Shown: positions 8,363 to 17,016 of the stretch, one piece after another
Layout of the letters: each line of letters opens with the position of its first letter
Numbering within the stretch: the first letter of the stretch is position 1
From: Sulfuricurvum sp.
GTDB taxonomy: Bacteria > Campylobacterota > Campylobacteria > Campylobacterales > Sulfurimonadaceae
NCBI GenBank assembly: GCA_028710885.1
Contig: JAQTTG010000005.1
Location: 130,443 to 194,442, forward strand
Reading direction: 5' to 3'
Length of the DNA: 64,000 nt
The notes under the pieces: model-generated
What the model was told of the DNA's origin: nothing
Database searches by the model: none
Seen by the model: the letters and a program-made list of their open reading frames with translations, nothing else
Program-made: the position numbers and the translations under genes

Positions 8363-9244
8363 ATGAAAAAAGACTCATCCACCCTCTATTTTATTGGCAT
8401 GATTGTCGCGATGCTCTTATGGGGTGTAGCGTGGACGGCGGGCAAGGTAGCGGCGCACCATTCCAATGCTGAAGTATCGGCGTTTTGGCGCTATGCATTC
8501 TCTCTCATTTCGATCCTCCCGCTCATCTGGGTGATGAAATCGCCGCTCCGCTCTGATCGGCGCGGGATGATCTACATGATTAGCGCGGGATTGCTCACTT
8601 CCGTATTTAACTATTTTTTCTTTGCGGGGTTGTTGCACGGTCAGGCGGGATTTGGAGGGACATTGGTCACCTCAGTTTCTCCGATCATCACCTACGTCCT
8701 TTCTATCGCGTTACTGGGGCTTCGCGTATCGACCAAAGAGATTATCGCCCTCACGGTTGGGATCATCGGTGCGTTGGTTCTGATGAGGGTTCCGAGCGAG
8801 GGGTGGGGATTTTTAGACCTCGAAAATAGCTATTTCGTCGCGGCGGCATTGGTGTGGGCATTGGTGACGATTGTGTCGCAAAAAGCCTCCAAACATACCA
8901 CACCGATGCTCTATACGACGGTGGTATTTGCCGTGGCGATGAGTACCAATCTCCTCTTTGCCTTGCCGTATCATCCTTTTGATTTTGCCCGTTATGACGC
9001 GACGTTTTGGTGGACGATCCTCTTTATCGGAGTTTTTCCCGGCACGCTCAGCACCGCGCTCTTTTTTGCTTCGGCGGGCAAGGTGGGGGCGCATCGGACG
9101 GGGGTGTTTATGTTTATCGTCCCTATCGGTGCGATTATCTCCAGTATATTCGTGTACGGCGAGCGTGTCGAACTCTCGACACTGATCGGGTGCGCGTTGG
9201 CATTCGCGGCGGTGATACTGTTTAATATGCGGAAAAATAGATAG
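8363..9244 (+). CDS. EamA/DMT-superfamily permease
   Basis: The ATG at 8363 gives a 293-residue protein with about ten hydrophobic helices in two EamA repeats (first beginning YFIGMIVAMLLWGVAWTAGK, second near SYFVAAALVWALVTIVSQKA). Drug/metabolite transporters of this family export amino acids, drugs or other small metabolites across the inner membrane; the substrate cannot be predicted. The longer frame from 8141 lies inside the divergent MarR-type gene and is rejected. CACAAT ends six bases before the ATG, so it may be leaderless as well. Sharing the intergenic palindrome with marR suggests substrate-inducible efflux. Confidence 0.87.
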   Translation: MKKDSSTLYFIGMIVAMLLWGVAWTAGKVAAHHSNAEVSAFWRYAFSLISILPLIWVMKSPLRSDRRGMIYMISAGLLTSVFNYFFFAGLLHGQAGFGGTLVTSVSPIITYVLSIALLGLRVSTKEIIALTVGIIGALVLMRVPSEGWGFLDLENSYFVAAALVWALVTIVSQKASKHTTPMLYTTVVFAVAMSTNLLFALPYHPFDFARYDATFWWTILFIGVFPGTLSTALFFASAGKVGAHRTGVFMFIVPIGAIISSIFVYGERVELSTLIGCALAFAAVILFNMRKNR

Positions 9245-9333
9245 TCGTTGCAAAGCTGCTCAGGATAAAAATAGACCATTTTGGAAGAAAAATGATAGAA
9301 TAAGAGATAAAGGGATCAAAAAAGGGAGAATGG

Positions 9334-11289
9334 GTGTCAGAAATTGGTTATAACCATAAATTTAGTGCTCTTGTAGACATCACCGCATTTGAACGATTGA
9401 TGGAAAGTTTATATAAAGCTACGGGGATCCCTTATGGTCTTGTTGCCAAAGATGGTGAGCTCCTCTCTCAAGTCGGATGGACGAATGCCTGTGCACTGTT
9501 TCATCGGGTAAATCCGCAAACCAATCTGCAATGCCAAGAGAGTAATATCGAGCTAATGCAGAGTGTGCATGAGGGTGAAGTTGCCTGTGCCAAATGTAAA
9601 AACGGCTTGATCGATTACGCCACGCCGATAGTCATCGAAGGGCAGGCTTTGGCGACGCTGTTTTTAGGTCAGGTTCTAAACGAAGCGCCGGATATGGAGT
9701 TCTTTGCCAAAAGAGCGATGGAATTTGATTATGACGAAGCACAATACTTAGAAGCGATTCGTGCTGTTCCCATCGTTGAAAATGAGCGTATGGAAGCGCT
9801 TATGGAGTGTATGGTTGGAATGGCACAAATGTTGGCTTCCAGTGGGTTGGCACGGCTACGAGAGACCCAGATGGCATCTGAATTGAGTAAAAGTACTGAG
9901 CAACGTATTGAGCTAAAAGATTTATTGGATTTATCACCGATAGGCATTGGGTGGTCAACTCTCGATGGAAAGATAGAGTATATTAACCGTCAATTTATCG
10001 AATTATTCGGTTATACACTTGAAGATATTCCAGATATTTCTACATGGTATTTGAAGGCTTATCCTGATGCAAACTATAGAAAGAATGTTGTAATTCCCTG
10101 GTATAAAACTGTGATAGTGGCGTATGAAAACGGTATTACTCCTCCTGAATTAGAAGGAAATGTTACCTGCAAGGATGGGACAGAACGTCATATTGTTCTT
10201 CATGTTTCATGGATTGGCGATAAACGTCTCGTTACGTTTAGCGATATGACTGCACACTGGAAGAGTGAACGGCGTAACCAAGCACATGATGGGATGCTTC
10301 AGATGGTAGCAAAAGGGTTGCCTTTGCCCGATATTCTCCATGCAATTGTTGTGGCAATCGAATCGGAAGAGCCTACCTCTAAGTGCAGTATATTATTGCT
10401 GGATGATGAGAAAAAACATCTATTCAGCGGAGCATCTAACAATCTTCCTCAATTTTATAATGATGCAATTGACGGTGTTGAGATCGGCATGGGTGTAGGG
10501 TCATGCGGGACTGCCGCGTATCTGGCTAAACGTGTTGTTGTCGAAGATATTATGACCCATGAATATTGGGCACCTTATAAAGAGTTGGCTAAACAGGCTG
10601 ATTTGGCATCATGTTGGTCAGAACCAATCGTCTCATCGGATGGAAATGTATTGGGTACATTTGCAATATACCATGCAAAAGCGAGTAAACCGACGAACGC
10701 CGATATTGAACGGATCCGTTTCGCGGCGAATCTCGCAGCCATAGCGATAGAAAATAGAAGCGCTCATAAAGAGCTCGAACGTCGTGCCTATACCGATTAT
10801 TTGACGGGTCTGTTTAATCGGCGCTATTTCATTGAACACTCGGAGGCAGAACTTGCTCGCCGACATCGTTACGGAGGAGATGTTTCTTTGATCATGCTCG
10901 ATATTGATTATTTTAAAAAGGTCAATGATCAGTACGGTCATGGGGTGGGTGATATGGTTTTGCAAAAAATTGCTGATATCTGTCGTGAAACCCTACGTGA
11001 TATTGATGTCATAGGGCGTATCGGCGGTGAAGAGTTTGCTGTCTTGTTACCGGAAACAGATGGATTGCGGGCAATGGAAGCCGCTGAAAGGCTGCGTATA
11101 ACAATATCAAAAGCAGAGATCAAGATAGTGAAGGGAATATTGCCAAATTTTACCGCTTCATTTGGAGTTGTGAGTGCTGATACAGCGGATATCACTATTG
11201 ATATGTTGCTCAATCAAGCCGATTGCGCATTGTATGATGCCAAAGAGAGCGGACGAAATCGGGTTTGTATGGCAAGGAAAACCCCATAG
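9334..11289 (+). CDS. PocR-PAS-GAF diguanylate cyclase
   Basis: A 651-residue signalling protein beginning at GTG 9334, chosen because AAAGGGAG precedes it at good spacing; an ATG at 9330 is out of frame. Domains in order: PocR sensory domain (about 1-165, with the Cys-rich NACALFHRVNP, LQCQES and VACAKCKNGLIDYA segments), PAS (about 194-310), GAF (about 318-480) and GGDEF (485-650). The active site is GGEEF (564-568), preceded by the product-inhibition I-site RDID. It should make c-di-GMP in response to a ligand or redox cue at the PocR/GAF domains. No transmembrane segment is seen, so it is cytoplasmic. It appears to be monocistronic. Confidence 0.88.
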   Translation: MSEIGYNHKFSALVDITAFERLMESLYKATGIPYGLVAKDGELLSQVGWTNACALFHRVNPQTNLQCQESNIELMQSVHEGEVACAKCKNGLIDYATPIVIEGQALATLFLGQVLNEAPDMEFFAKRAMEFDYDEAQYLEAIRAVPIVENERMEALMECMVGMAQMLASSGLARLRETQMASELSKSTEQRIELKDLLDLSPIGIGWSTLDGKIEYINRQFIELFGYTLEDIPDISTWYLKAYPDANYRKNVVIPWYKTVIVAYENGITPPELEGNVTCKDGTERHIVLHVSWIGDKRLVTFSDMTAHWKSERRNQAHDGMLQMVAKGLPLPDILHAIVVAIESEEPTSKCSILLLDDEKKHLFSGASNNLPQFYNDAIDGVEIGMGVGSCGTAAYLAKRVVVEDIMTHEYWAPYKELAKQADLASCWSEPIVSSDGNVLGTFAIYHAKASKPTNADIERIRFAANLAAIAIENRSAHKELERRAYTDYLTGLFNRRYFIEHSEAELARRHRYGGDVSLIMLDIDYFKKVNDQYGHGVGDMVLQKIADICRETLRDIDVIGRIGGEEFAVLLPETDGLRAMEAAERLRITISKAEIKIVKGILPNFTASFGVVSADTADITIDMLLNQADCALYDAKESGRNRVCMARKTP

Positions 11290-11393
11290 CCGACTGCTAA
11301 ATTTTTATACCAACATATAAATAAAATATGAAGTTCTTTACTCAATATTTATAATCATGGTATAAGATTTGGTAGATTGTAAAAGGAGCTATC

Positions 11394-12891: not shown

Positions 12892-13080
12892 ATGGTAGCT
12901 ATTAAACAAGAAGCACAACAAATGATCCAAAATCTTCCCGAAAATTGCACGTATGAGGATATTCAATACCACCTTTACGTTGTTGAAAAAATCAAAAACG
13001 GCATTGACCGCGCGCACAAAGGGGAAACGTCATCCCACGAAGAAGCAAAAGCAAGAATGGCTAAATGGCTATCCAATTAG
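12892..13080 (+). CDS. Putative antitoxin of a ParE/RelE-type pair
   Basis: A 62-residue, mostly helical, charged protein (VAIKQEAQQMIQNLPENCTY, then a C-terminal HEEAKARMAKWL). Short proteins of this form commonly precede ParE-like toxins, and the C-terminal helix would bind the toxin. It ends 16 bases inside the next gene, so the two are translationally coupled. The ATG follows AAAGGGAG. No DNA-binding domain is obvious. The assignment rests mainly on size, the neighbour and the overlap. Confidence 0.72.
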   Translation: MVAIKQEAQQMIQNLPENCTYEDIQYHLYVVEKIKNGIDRAHKGETSSHEEAKARMAKWLSN

Positions 13081-13376
13081 AGTGGTCGAATGAGGCACTC
13101 GAAGATATAGAATCCATCGCTACGTACATCGAAAAAGACTCTCCCGTATACGCAAAATCCGTTGTTTTTAAAATTTTTGAAAAAGCCGAAATTATAAGAG
13201 ATTTCACGGAGTTGGGTCGTATCGTCCCCGAACTGAACGATAGCACTATTCGAGAGATATTTGTTTATAGCTACAGATTGATTTATAAAATCGATTCAAA
13301 TAGGATTTTATTTGTCGCTGTCATACATGGTAAACGACTGCTGGAAAATCATGAAAAAAGCATCACTGAAGAATAG
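13065..13376 (+). CDS. ParE/RelE superfamily toxin
   Basis: A 103-residue protein with the ParE pattern: LEWSNEALEDIESIATYIEK, the ELGRIVPEL loop, REIFVYSYRLIYKID and a final VAVIHGKRLLE. ParE toxins inhibit gyrase, while RelE relatives cleave mRNA; the sequence resembles the ParE side. It overlaps the upstream antitoxin gene. The pair stands directly before the 3' end of the large helicase-nuclease gene on the other strand, much as the HigBA-like pair stands beside the HNH gene. Confidence 0.86.
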   Translation: MAIQLEWSNEALEDIESIATYIEKDSPVYAKSVVFKIFEKAEIIRDFTELGRIVPELNDSTIREIFVYSYRLIYKIDSNRILFVAVIHGKRLLENHEKSITEE

Positions 13377-13563: not shown

Positions 13564-16500
13564 TTAATCTTTGTTACCTAGCCAATCGCCTAAACTGATA
13601 TAGCCTTTATCTTTGTAAACATTCCATGGCGTAGCAGGTATGTTGCTTGGCTTTGTTGGTAAATGTTCAAATCTTCCCTTGCAATAATCTTTCCATTCAT
13701 TTGTATTTTGTAGGCAAAGAGAATGGACAAATTTTATAGCTTCGTCATAAGAAAGAATATTGGTTGACTTTCCTTTCGTGGATTCCGTACCTATCCAATC
13801 ATTCATTCCTTTCCATCCATCATTTTTATAGTAACTATTTGGACTTTTTGGAATATTCTCTGGAATTGGTTCAAATCCTTCTAATTTTCCTTTTTTATAG
13901 TCTTCCCATTCATAAGTATTTTTTAGTTTTAAACTTCTTGCGAATGCTCTTGCTTCTTCAAAAGGCAGGGCATTTTGTACTTTAGTTTTTATTTTATTAT
14001 TAGAAGTTTCTCCAAGCCAATCATTCCAATTTTTCCAGCCATTATCTTTATAAACATACCAAGGTTGTTTGGGAATATCATCTGGTTTAGTTGGTAAATC
14101 ATCAAGTTCATCTTTAATATACTGTTGCCATTGGGTTGAACTTTTTAACTGCAACTTATGCACAAATTTTTTTGCATCTTCATATGCTAACCAAATATCA
14201 TTTTCTTCATCTGGGTTAGCGCCTCGACGTTTTCTGCCAGTTCCAAGCCAATCACCATAGTCTATCCAGCCATCATTTTTATATCGATCATCAGGTGATG
14301 TAGGTATATCATTTGGTTTAGGCTCATATCCTTCAAGTTCACCTTTACAATATTGTTTCCATTCTATTGTTCCATTTAAGTTTAAACTTCTTACAAATTC
14401 TCTCGCTTCTTCAAATGGTCTCCATTCACCATATATCTTTGTAGAATGTCCAGTCAGCCAATCCTCCCAGTTAATCCACTCTTTTCTATACCTTAAATCA
14501 GGATCTCTTGGTAAATCTTTCGGTTTCGTAGGTAGATTAGGTATCTCTCCTTTACAGTACTTATTCCATTCTTTACGATCTATGAGATTGAGCTTTTTAA
14601 CAAATGCTTTTGCCTCATCAAAAGACCTAATTGTAGTACCTAGAAAATCTTTCCATAGAAATTTTTTTTTATAGCTTCTTTTATATCTTTGATGTGGCTG
14701 TATAGGAATAAAATCAGGAATATCATGTTCTTTCCAGTAATTATCCCAATCTTTTTGGTTTTTTCCGATATGTAGCTTTCTTACAAATTCTCTAGCTTCC
14801 TCAAAAGGTAAATATTTTAAATCAAAAGAAGTACCTAACCAATCTTGGATACCATTCCAACCTTGCAGCTTATATACTGTGTTTGGACTTGATGGAATAT
14901 CACTTAGTCTTAAACCTTTTTCAGGTAATTCATTTTTGCTATATAGTTTCCACTCTTCGCTATTTTTTAATCCCAAGTTTCTTACAAATTCTCTAGCTTC
15001 CTCAAAAGGGCGCCACTTGAGGTTTTTAATTTTAGGAATAATTGAAAGTCTGATAGCATCATTGAACTCATTAATATCGATACTTAGTCCAAGTGGAATA
15101 TCAAACTCAACCAATCTACCGCTACTTGATCTATCTTTACTCTCAATTGTTTCAAAGTAATCGATTATCCTGTCATCGCTGGAAGCCAGAGCTTTTAATA
15201 TGGTTAAAATAGACTGAAAGTTTTTGTTTTTTATGTCTTCAATATTGATATTTTCATCATCTATCAAAACTGGAACCACAACATACCCAAACTGTTTATT
15301 TTTTGACTGCCTCAAAGCTCTTCCAACGGCCTGAACGATATCAATCGTACTGTTTTTTGGATCAGCGAACAAAACACAATCTATATTTGGTACATCTACT
15401 CCTTCGGTAAGACATCTTGCATTGGTTATCAGAGAACTGTCGGAATTTGCAAACTCGTTAATGACTTTTTTTCTTTTTGCCGTAGGTGTATCGCCACTTA
15501 CATGAAAAGTATCCAAATGAGTGTATTCATTAAAACTTTTTCTAAAAATGGCTTCTTGTGATTGAAAAAACTTTGCCCTTTCGATGCTGCTATGGAAGGA
15601 GATAGTATGCTTGATCTTGTATTTTTTGATAGCTTTGTGAAGAGCAACGGTAGAAGCCAACATTTCCGCTTCAACCTCTTTCGTGTAATTTTCATTTTGA
15701 GGCTTCACATAGTTGTTATTTTCAATGAGTTTTTCAATCTCTCGTTTGGTAACCATTATTGAAATGATCTTGTAATCACATAAAATTGGAGGATCGCTTT
15801 CGAGGGCTTCTCTAAATGAAAGTACTTCAAAATCCTCACCATAAATATCAATATCATCCATACTGGCTATTTCATCGCTGCTACCTTTGTAATATCTCTC
15901 CGTAGCAGTCATAAAGAGTCTTTTTTTGATGGGAATATTTTCGTCAAATAGCAAATGGCTAAAAAGCGAATCTTTCAAGCCGACTGTTTTATGAGCTTCA
16001 TCCATGATTCCAAAATCGTAGACAAAACCTGCTATTTTTGATGCTTTGGCAATAACTTCGCCACTTTGATATGTTGTGAAAATTATTGTCGTATTATTGT
16101 GATGCATTTTATTATTTAGCCATTTTGATATGTAATCAATGTCTGTTGAAACATCGATACCCAGATCTTTTGTAGTTGCCATAAATGTATCATCTTCCAG
16201 CTCTGATACAGTGTCATCACTACAAACTGCCAACCAGTTGATATCAATATTATTAGCAAGACTCTCTCTTGTCCAAACTTCCAGTGTTTGTTTTATAAGT
16301 GCTAAACTAGGTACAGCTATGAGTATGTTTTGTGCATTGAATTTACGGGTTATCCAATAAGCAGTCAAACTCTTACCGCTGCCACATGCCATGATGAGTT
16401 TACCACGATCGTTATTTTCCTCTATGAAATGACTGTAGGCATTTTCTATGGCTCTTTGCTGGTGAGCTCTCGGTAAAAAAGGTTTTAGAATTATTTTTTT

Positions 16501-17016
16501 GTTGTCTAAGTACGCATTGAGTTTCTCAAAAAAATTTTCATTTAGTGTGTTCCATGTATCTGCCAATAGAAAGGAAATGGTGTCATCATAAAGTTTGTCA
16601 AATTTATAGCTTTGTTTATTGGCAGTTGTGCAAACTAGTTTATGAGAAATATTTTGACAAATTGTATTTGCAATATCTATGAATGTGGTAATATCTTCTC
16701 TCGTAATAGAACTTTCTTCATCAGTTCTATATTTGCACTGTATAGCCCAATATTCATCTTCTTTGGTTTGTGCAACTAAATCAATTCCCTCATCACTATC
16801 TGGTAAATTTAAATACGTTTTTACATTATTTGGAACTTCATTTAACAGCCAAACATTTTTAAGTTTGGTCTGATACACAGGATCGATCAATAAGAAGTAC
16901 TTGGTGATTAACTCAAAAATATCACCTTTTTCTTTTTTTTCAAGAGTAGCTATTAACTTGAATTTTAGTTCTTGCCAATTTTTGTATTTTTTTAATTCAT
17001 TGATTATTTTTTTCAC
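13564..17016 (-). CDS. Large nuclease-helicase with seven PHINT-like C-terminal repeats (putative defence protein)
   Basis: An 1150-residue fusion starting at GTG 17016. Residues about 25-135 look like a restriction-type PD-(D/E)XK nuclease (E76GID79 and QCK at 93-95, as in Mrr-like domains). Residues 180-600 are a superfamily 2 helicase/translocase: Walker A ACGSGKS (210-216), DEAH (339-342), MTATER (369-374), TNARCLTEGVDVP (531-543) and motif VI QAVGRALRQ (562-570). Residues 668-1150 are seven tandem repeats of 61-77 residues, each like PFEEAREFVR...EW..Y..GW..W.DWLG, as in phage-integrase repeat units. No methyltransferase or specificity gene is adjacent. I infer a stand-alone DNA-targeting defence enzyme. 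The acquired character is supported by the neighbouring toxin-antitoxin pair and a flank resembling that of the HNH gene. Confidence 0.78.
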   Translation of the reverse strand: MKKIINELKKYKNWQELKFKLIATLEKKEKGDIFELITKYFLLIDPVYQTKLKNVWLLNEVPNNVKTYLNLPDSDEGIDLVAQTKEDEYWAIQCKYRTDEESSITREDITTFIDIANTICQNISHKLVCTTANKQSYKFDKLYDDTISFLLADTWNTLNENFFEKLNAYLDNKKIILKPFLPRAHQQRAIENAYSHFIEENNDRGKLIMACGSGKSLTAYWITRKFNAQNILIAVPSLALIKQTLEVWTRESLANNIDINWLAVCSDDTVSELEDDTFMATTKDLGIDVSTDIDYISKWLNNKMHHNNTTIIFTTYQSGEVIAKASKIAGFVYDFGIMDEAHKTVGLKDSLFSHLLFDENIPIKKRLFMTATERYYKGSSDEIASMDDIDIYGEDFEVLSFREALESDPPILCDYKIISIMVTKREIEKLIENNNYVKPQNENYTKEVEAEMLASTVALHKAIKKYKIKHTISFHSSIERAKFFQSQEAIFRKSFNEYTHLDTFHVSGDTPTAKRKKVINEFANSDSSLITNARCLTEGVDVPNIDCVLFADPKNSTIDIVQAVGRALRQSKNKQFGYVVVPVLIDDENINIEDIKNKNFQSILTILKALASSDDRIIDYFETIESKDRSSSGRLVEFDIPLGLSIDINEFNDAIRLSIIPKIKNLKWRPFEEAREFVRNLGLKNSEEWKLYSKNELPEKGLRLSDIPSSPNTVYKLQGWNGIQDWLGTSFDLKYLPFEEAREFVRKLHIGKNQKDWDNYWKEHDIPDFIPIQPHQRYKRSYKKKFLWKDFLGTTIRSFDEAKAFVKKLNLIDRKEWNKYCKGEIPNLPTKPKDLPRDPDLRYRKEWINWEDWLTGHSTKIYGEWRPFEEAREFVRSLNLNGTIEWKQYCKGELEGYEPKPNDIPTSPDDRYKNDGWIDYGDWLGTGRKRRGANPDEENDIWLAYEDAKKFVHKLQLKSSTQWQQYIKDELDDLPTKPDDIPKQPWYVYKDNGWKNWNDWLGETSNNKIKTKVQNALPFEEARAFARSLKLKNTYEWEDYKKGKLEGFEPIPENIPKSPNSYYKNDGWKGMNDWIGTESTKGKSTNILSYDEAIKFVHSLCLQNTNEWKDYCKGRFEHLPTKPSNIPATPWNVYKDKGYISLGDWLGNKD
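13567..15015 (-). repeat. Seven tandem PHINT-like protein repeats (coding)
   Basis: Counting from the N-terminal side, the repeat units are 67, 61, 69, 77, 75, 71 and 63 residues and begin at residues 668, 735, 796, 865, 942, 1017 and 1088. Each unit starts W/L-x-[PSA]-[FY]-[ED]-[ED]-A and ends near DWLG or DFLG. Repeat 2 is the most diverged. The DNA copies are not identical, so this is an old amplification. Confidence 0.8.

Follow-up and report, generated by a model that had tools for sequence, protein, structure and literature searches.

We analyzed a 64,000-nucleotide stretch of DNA from a Sulfuricurvum sp. genome (contig JAQTTG010000005.1, positions 130,443 to 194,442; hereafter the window), in which a gene with a GTG start and an intact open reading frame (ORF), located at 13564..17016 on the minus strand, encodes a protein of 1150 amino acids (aa) that joins an Mrr-type nuclease and a superfamily 2 (SF2) translocase motor to a C-terminal array of small repeats. 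An initial reading of the window (hereafter the original prediction) had proposed this protein as a candidate undescribed defense enzyme. Based on the comparisons reported here, we propose that it is probably an accessory, single-gene, methyltransferase-less, ATP-dependent restriction-type defense enzyme directed against mobile DNA, in which the array would serve as an exchangeable reader, most likely of DNA.

A Type ISP nuclease-motor followed by a repeat array

The N-terminal half of the protein comprises an Mrr-type PD-(D/E)XK nuclease domain (residues 1-160; 16537..17016, minus strand) and an SF2 helicase-like translocase motor (residues 175-620; 15157..16494, minus strand), followed in the AlphaFold2 model by a helical connector that leads from the motor to the array (residues 621-670; 15007..15156, minus strand). 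The nuclease was assigned from a Pfam match to Mrr_cat_2 at residues 44-141 (69.6 bits; cut-off 22), the alignment with LlaBIII, and residue invariance, and the motor from matches to ResIII (first helicase lobe, residues 182-372; 57.8 bits, cut-off 22.5) and Helicase_C (second lobe, residues 459-569; 54.7 bits, cut-off 23.5), supported by a match to structure 4xqk and by Foldseek. Across 23 aligned proteins, neither the nuclease residues E35, D79, Q93, and K95 nor the motor residues K215, DEAH 339-342, TAT 370-372, R534, Q562, R566, and R569 showed any variation. With these domains above cut-off and the catalytic residues invariant, the predicted fusion of a PD-(D/E)XK-like nuclease with a full SF2 motor in one 1150-residue chain was confirmed.

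In a search of solved structures, residues 26-620 of the window protein aligned with the Type ISP enzyme LlaBIII (4xqk; E-value (E) 3e-68), with the window motif DEGID opposite DTGVD and QCK opposite QAK, while residues 175-674 aligned with LlaGI. A PADLOC profile for restriction-methyltransferase fusions covers residues 25-629 (E 9e-102), and LlaBIII 4xqk was also the top Foldseek match of the AlphaFold model (E 1.4e-34); SauUSI (7clg, E 3e-14) was among the best structural matches of the motor part. The invariant R534 appears to be the counterpart of the LlaBIII motif V arginine R564, which grips DNA (PMC7049714). By homology, the N-terminal half is thus a Type ISP nuclease-motor of the LlaBIII/LlaGI kind, which the original prediction of a restriction-type fusion did not name, and hence not new. 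Type ISP enzymes, however, continue from the nuclease-motor into a coupler, a methyltransferase, and a recognition domain (PMC4666363). No methyltransferase match was found in the window protein with Pfam, PADLOC, or solved structures; homology to the Type ISP enzymes extends no further than residue 620-674, and what comes after the motor is the repeat array, in place of the coupler, methyltransferase, and target recognition domain. The window protein is like the Type ISP enzymes in its Mrr nuclease and SF2 translocase, which are collinear over residues 26-620 with conserved catalytic motifs, but unlike them in its C-terminus and in its phylogenetic position: in a nuclease-motor tree, the methyltransferase-bearing Type ISP clade is closed at 100/100, and the window protein and other repeat-bearing proteins fall outside it. 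A single origin of the repeat-bearing group received weak support (68/73).

A hidden Markov model (HMM) of the repeat, for which the window protein and two relatives served as seeds and all homologues were used in refinement, identified exactly seven repeats in the window array, the number originally predicted, each of ~58 aa (E 5e-18 to 3e-27 per repeat; consensus FEEARKFVRKLNLKSQKEWKKYCKGGKKPKDIPANPEKVYKNKGWKGWGDWLGT). These are located, on the minus strand, at residues 671-729 (14830..15006), 738-794 (14635..14805), 799-854 (14455..14622), 868-926 (14239..14415), 945-1002 (14011..14184), 1019-1077 (13786..13962), and 1090-1148 (13573..13749). AlphaFold2 predicted seven compact, mostly four-helix beads joined by flexible linkers (mean predicted local distance difference test score 84); the predicted template modeling score of the array model was 0.29, and the bead-to-bead arrangement is hence not predicted. 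With regard to the PHINT-like identity originally proposed for the repeats, the window protein itself scored below the cut-off for INT_rpt (PF14882; 11.3 bits against 26.5), but the array of a homologue (L058) scored 64.2 bits, and a tblastn match spanning 99% of the window array (E 3e-16) connects it with a VPA1269-family integrase protein that carries six PF14882-family copies and is encoded beside a GmtY recombinase. Because of these two results, the PHINT/INT_rpt label is justified through relatives, and the link, while indirect, is sound. The VPA1269-family recombinase proteins of the Gamma-mobile-trio share the INT_rpt array with the window protein (the one examined has 6 copies over PF14882), but carry it N-terminal to an Integrase_2 domain and have no helicase. 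Arrays are basic in all relatives (isoelectric point (pI) 8.3-10.5), including those from Campylobacterota with an acidic N-terminal part. In the regular 71-aa arrays, a TALE-type two-residue code was sought, but variation was spread over ~20 positions with no obvious code pair.

Array exchange on a constant chassis

Five SAR11 loci carry the gene at one chromosomal site, upstream of genes read as tuf-nusG-rplK-rplA. The nuclease-motor proteins of these loci are 92-95% identical, which exceeds the identity of most flanking proteins (SpoU-type, L1, L11: 68-88%), whereas their arrays, with 4, 6, 6, 6, and 7 repeats, are 34-44% identical, values that depend on how the repeats are aligned. Sliding protein identity falls from 85-99% to ~30-40% at the motor/array border. 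At the DNA level, a tract of 88-90% identity begins ~180 bases ahead of the start and ends at nucleotide 2000-2180; across the array this identity disappears, and it is regained at the 3' end of the gene, continuing into flanks of 78-83%. No pair of repeats from different SAR11 arrays exceeded 54% identity (best matches 33-54%), and slippage of one ancestral array, considered as a source of this diversity, is unlikely because sister arrays share no close repeat copies. A conserved chassis, a sharply bounded replaced region, and a single locus are the marks of an exchangeable specificity module such as HsdS, and all three were found here; by this analogy, the SAR11 pattern is one of HsdS-type specificity exchange and provides independent evidence, at the level of sequence, that the array is a recognition module.

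The same split was observed in a second SAR11 clade, mobile elements included (93% identity in the N-terminal part versus 43% in the array), and, in milder form, between Campylobacterota genomes G000 and G116 (87% versus 64%; 7 versus 8 repeats). In two Verrucomicrobia copies (L059 and L134), array repeats 1, 2, and 5-7 are nearly identical and repeats 3 and 4 have diverged, which suggests replacement of single beads. The repeats thus not only stand in the place of a specificity subunit, as had been predicted, but also vary like a specificity module in both SAR11 clades and in Campylobacterota.

Distribution, relatives, and gene neighborhood

The window gene is an accessory gene with a patchy distribution. 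The full gene was found in 2 of 41 genomes examined from the genus Sulfuricurvum, and in a relative with the same right-hand neighbors, which does not have the gene, homology ends ~120 bases upstream of the window gene's start. G+C content is ~33% across the whole gene versus ~42% in its flanks, and the start point of the homologue in G116 matches that of the window ORF. The same architecture is present in five Sulfurimonadaceae genomes; because two Sulfuricurvum copies are not sisters in the nuclease-motor tree, horizontal transfer is suggested. A genome without the gene contains a 38-residue stretch (L038; G447:C5:18038-18151) that is 74% identical to the array end and is probably a decayed copy.

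A scan of GTDB genomes identified full-length relatives in Verrucomicrobia, Acidobacteria, Marinimicrobia, Bacteroidetes, Rhodospirillaceae, and about ten SAR11 genomes; the architecture also occurs in Campylobacterota and in integrase-bearing mobile elements, and complete copies have 4-9 repeats. A scan of viral contigs found no relative with the window protein alone as query, and seven full-length relatives when the 23-row alignment was used. On two SAR11-related contigs from the viral collection, the gene lies near an integrase and a DUF5906/AEP-TOTE primase (L141:1511-6632 and 8996-11335) or near an integrase (L143:7995-12480), which suggests that these contigs are phage satellites or integrative elements. 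Viral contigs L147, L148, L150, L151, and L153 encode an ISP-like nuclease-motor with a third non-methyltransferase C-terminus (~330 aa) and form their own clade.

Two nuclease-motor proteins (L079:9926-12898 and L136:2986-6591) carry HA-type arrays (PF03457 in L136) that replace INT_rpt; the latter, from Rhodococcus, combines an Mrr nuclease with 8 HA repeats, and the former has HA-like repeats and is placed, in the nuclease-motor tree, among or beside the INT repeat-bearing proteins. HA (PF03457) repeat proteins, including TtrA-like proteins, resemble the window protein in that an ISP-like motor precedes small repeats arrayed at the C-terminus, but the repeat family is different and many Streptomyces copies have no match over the nuclease. 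The helicases encoded at Streptomyces linear-plasmid ends are more distant relatives than L079 and L136.

Related repeats were also found in Druantia-III-like operons. In four genomes of the phylum (L050:5670-14103, L048:8503-16924, L049:2280-10698, and L051:10541-18992), a protein with four INT_rpt-like repeats occupies the DruH position and is encoded immediately upstream of a large helicase, which was DruE3-like in the one operon scanned. This protein is ~1190 aa long with its repeats located N-terminally, and these are, in the best pairs, 49-67% identical to window repeats 1, 4, and 5; its repeat 3 is the closest counterpart of window repeat 4 (61-67% identity) and its repeat 4 that of window repeat 5 (55-58%). 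The L050 protein had no PADLOC or Pfam match, and none to the DruH profile; a WYL regulator and Type I HsdM/HsdS genes are located nearby. The putative equivalence of the repeat protein to DruH, which has been described as probably the component of Druantia III that senses phage (PMC13192584), is by position only, and these operons possibly represent a new sensor variant of Druantia. Druantia III (DruH-DruE) differs from the system described here in that it is a two-gene system with a different helicase (DruE, MrfA-like), whereas the window gene stands alone with no DruE adjacent.

No DNA methyltransferase family was among the most frequent neighbor families of the homologues, and the N6-methyltransferase genes of the window's own genome are found on other contigs only; the earlier observation of no adjacent methyltransferase holds. 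Neighbors in the window encode a ParE toxin, GGDEF, N-acetyltransferase, and glycosylase proteins, among others, none of them DruE-like; a toxin-antitoxin-like pair at 12892-13376 (ParE toxin PF05016, 62 bits, and a small ORF that overlaps it on the upstream side) adjoins the gene. Defense-related neighbors of homologues include a CBASS cyclase and effector (L069), an SduA-like protein (L073), a Cas4-like nuclease 10 bases upstream of the gene (L062), a protein matching RT-protease and Avs models (L065), and PDC-M51A (L068). The original prediction was to be abandoned if homologues lay only in housekeeping contexts or if the N-terminal domain proved not to be a nuclease; the catalytic residues are invariant and the homologues accessory, with some near defense genes or in integrase-bearing elements, although several are single insertions among housekeeping genes.

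Proposed mode of action and alternative explanations

Homology shows the N-terminal half to be a nuclease joined to an SF2 double-stranded DNA translocase of the Type ISP kind, and comparison of copies shows the C-terminus to be a string of independent helical repeats exchanged wholesale in sequence and number while the chassis stays fixed. Under the reading that we favor, the array would act as a target-recognition module that most likely binds DNA, the likely ligand because the arrays are basic, are built as beads on a string, and share their repeats with tyrosine-recombinase-like and integrase proteins. Once the array engages its target on foreign DNA, ATP-driven translocation would be licensed, and the nuclease would cut when two motors meet or stall, after the Type ISP enzymes, in which cutting is reported to occur when two motors converge (PMC4666363, PMC7049714). 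Because no cognate methyltransferase was found, self-avoidance would have to lie in the choice of target: the host might lack the site because of its length or rarity, or the target might be a DNA state, or a factor bound to DNA, that is specific to phages. More tentatively, the array could be a modular DNA reader in which the footprint of 4-9 beads is long enough to specify a site absent from the host, such that no methyltransferase is needed and the enzyme is retargeted by swapping arrays or single beads. Because related repeats occupy the DruH position, it is also conceivable that the array recognizes a protein or a structure.

A number of observations weigh against this reading. A fold search with the repeat model yielded no PDB match at E <= 0.001 and no VIA match, the window array is only weakly basic (pI 8.3), and the repeat part of the DruH-position protein is near-neutral rather than basic. 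Array divergence is not universal, as the L059 and L134 arrays are 87% identical, and some SAR11 loci are single-cell assemblies in which amplification chimeras are possible. In addition, an all-against-all comparison of neighbors found no conserved operon partner across lineages, and most immediate neighbors are housekeeping or unrelated genes, among which several copies are single insertions.

An alternative that we consider rather unlikely is a sensor-type defense enzyme, in which the array, as in DruH, would recognize a phage protein or replication structure and activate the nuclease-motor; such an enzyme would have no sequence specificity and hence no need for a methyltransferase. DruH has been described as a phage sensor (PMC13192584) and a mycobacterial system is activated by a minor tail protein (PMC13316683); a related, near-neutral repeat module in the DruH position, as well as array hypervariability of the kind that an arms race against a phage protein could produce, would agree with this explanation. 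However, the protein in the DruH position did not match the DruH profile, and the uniformly basic arrays of the nuclease-motor proteins, together with the presence of the same repeat family on integrase proteins, point to DNA. A Type IV-like, modification-dependent restriction enzyme, in which the array would read modified phage bases, is improbable. SauUSI, an ATP-dependent Type IV enzyme, likewise combines a nuclease, an SF2 motor, and a reader in a single chain with no methyltransferase, but its reader is different and reads a methylated target (PMC7913695); modification-dependent enzymes need no self-protection, and SauUSI was among the best structural matches of the motor. Nevertheless, Pfam identified none of the known domains that read modified bases (SRA or YTH, for example) in the window protein, and one would not expect a reader of a common modified base to vary, as these arrays do, from 4 to 9 repeats and at 34-44% identity on a near-identical chassis.

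We assign a similarly small chance to a helicase involved in maintenance or transfer of plasmids or other elements rather than in defense, like the telomere-linked TtrA of Streptomyces, which was reported to be necessary for SLP2 conjugation (PMC8743542). While distant relatives annotated as 'Helicase associated domain protein' are found at the ends of many Streptomyces linear plasmids, and some copies of the window-type gene are in mobile elements, most of the Streptomyces matches begin at ~residue 185 with no match over the nuclease, the residues of which are invariant in the window family; furthermore, the SAR11 copies share one chromosomal site, and hypervariable arrays would be unexpected in a transfer factor. 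Finally, a DNA-repair or other housekeeping helicase-nuclease with an array that drifts through repeat instability seems very improbable: several copies do stand alone among housekeeping genes and repeats can be unstable, but the distribution is patchy and accessory, a syntenic relative does not have the gene, and slippage does not explain sister arrays whose repeats have no close counterparts (best 33-54%).

The restriction-type enzyme with an exchangeable reader thus remains the explanation that we favor. With regard to novelty, the claim of an undescribed enzyme does not hold for the N-terminal half, a known nuclease-motor that PADLOC recognizes, but no earlier description of the whole architecture was found among titles and abstracts on INT_rpt (PHINT), Type ISP, SAR11 defense, and HA domains, a partial coverage of the literature. 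That related repeats occupy the sensor position in Druantia-like operons suggests a recognition module shared between defense systems. Our data indicate a widespread family of putative restriction-type enzymes that have no methyltransferase, carry an exchangeable repeat reader, and are present in SAR11, whose members rank among the most abundant marine bacteria. Should the array indeed read DNA, these proteins would represent a naturally modular, retargetable nuclease-motor and a route by which restriction could avoid self-attack without modification.

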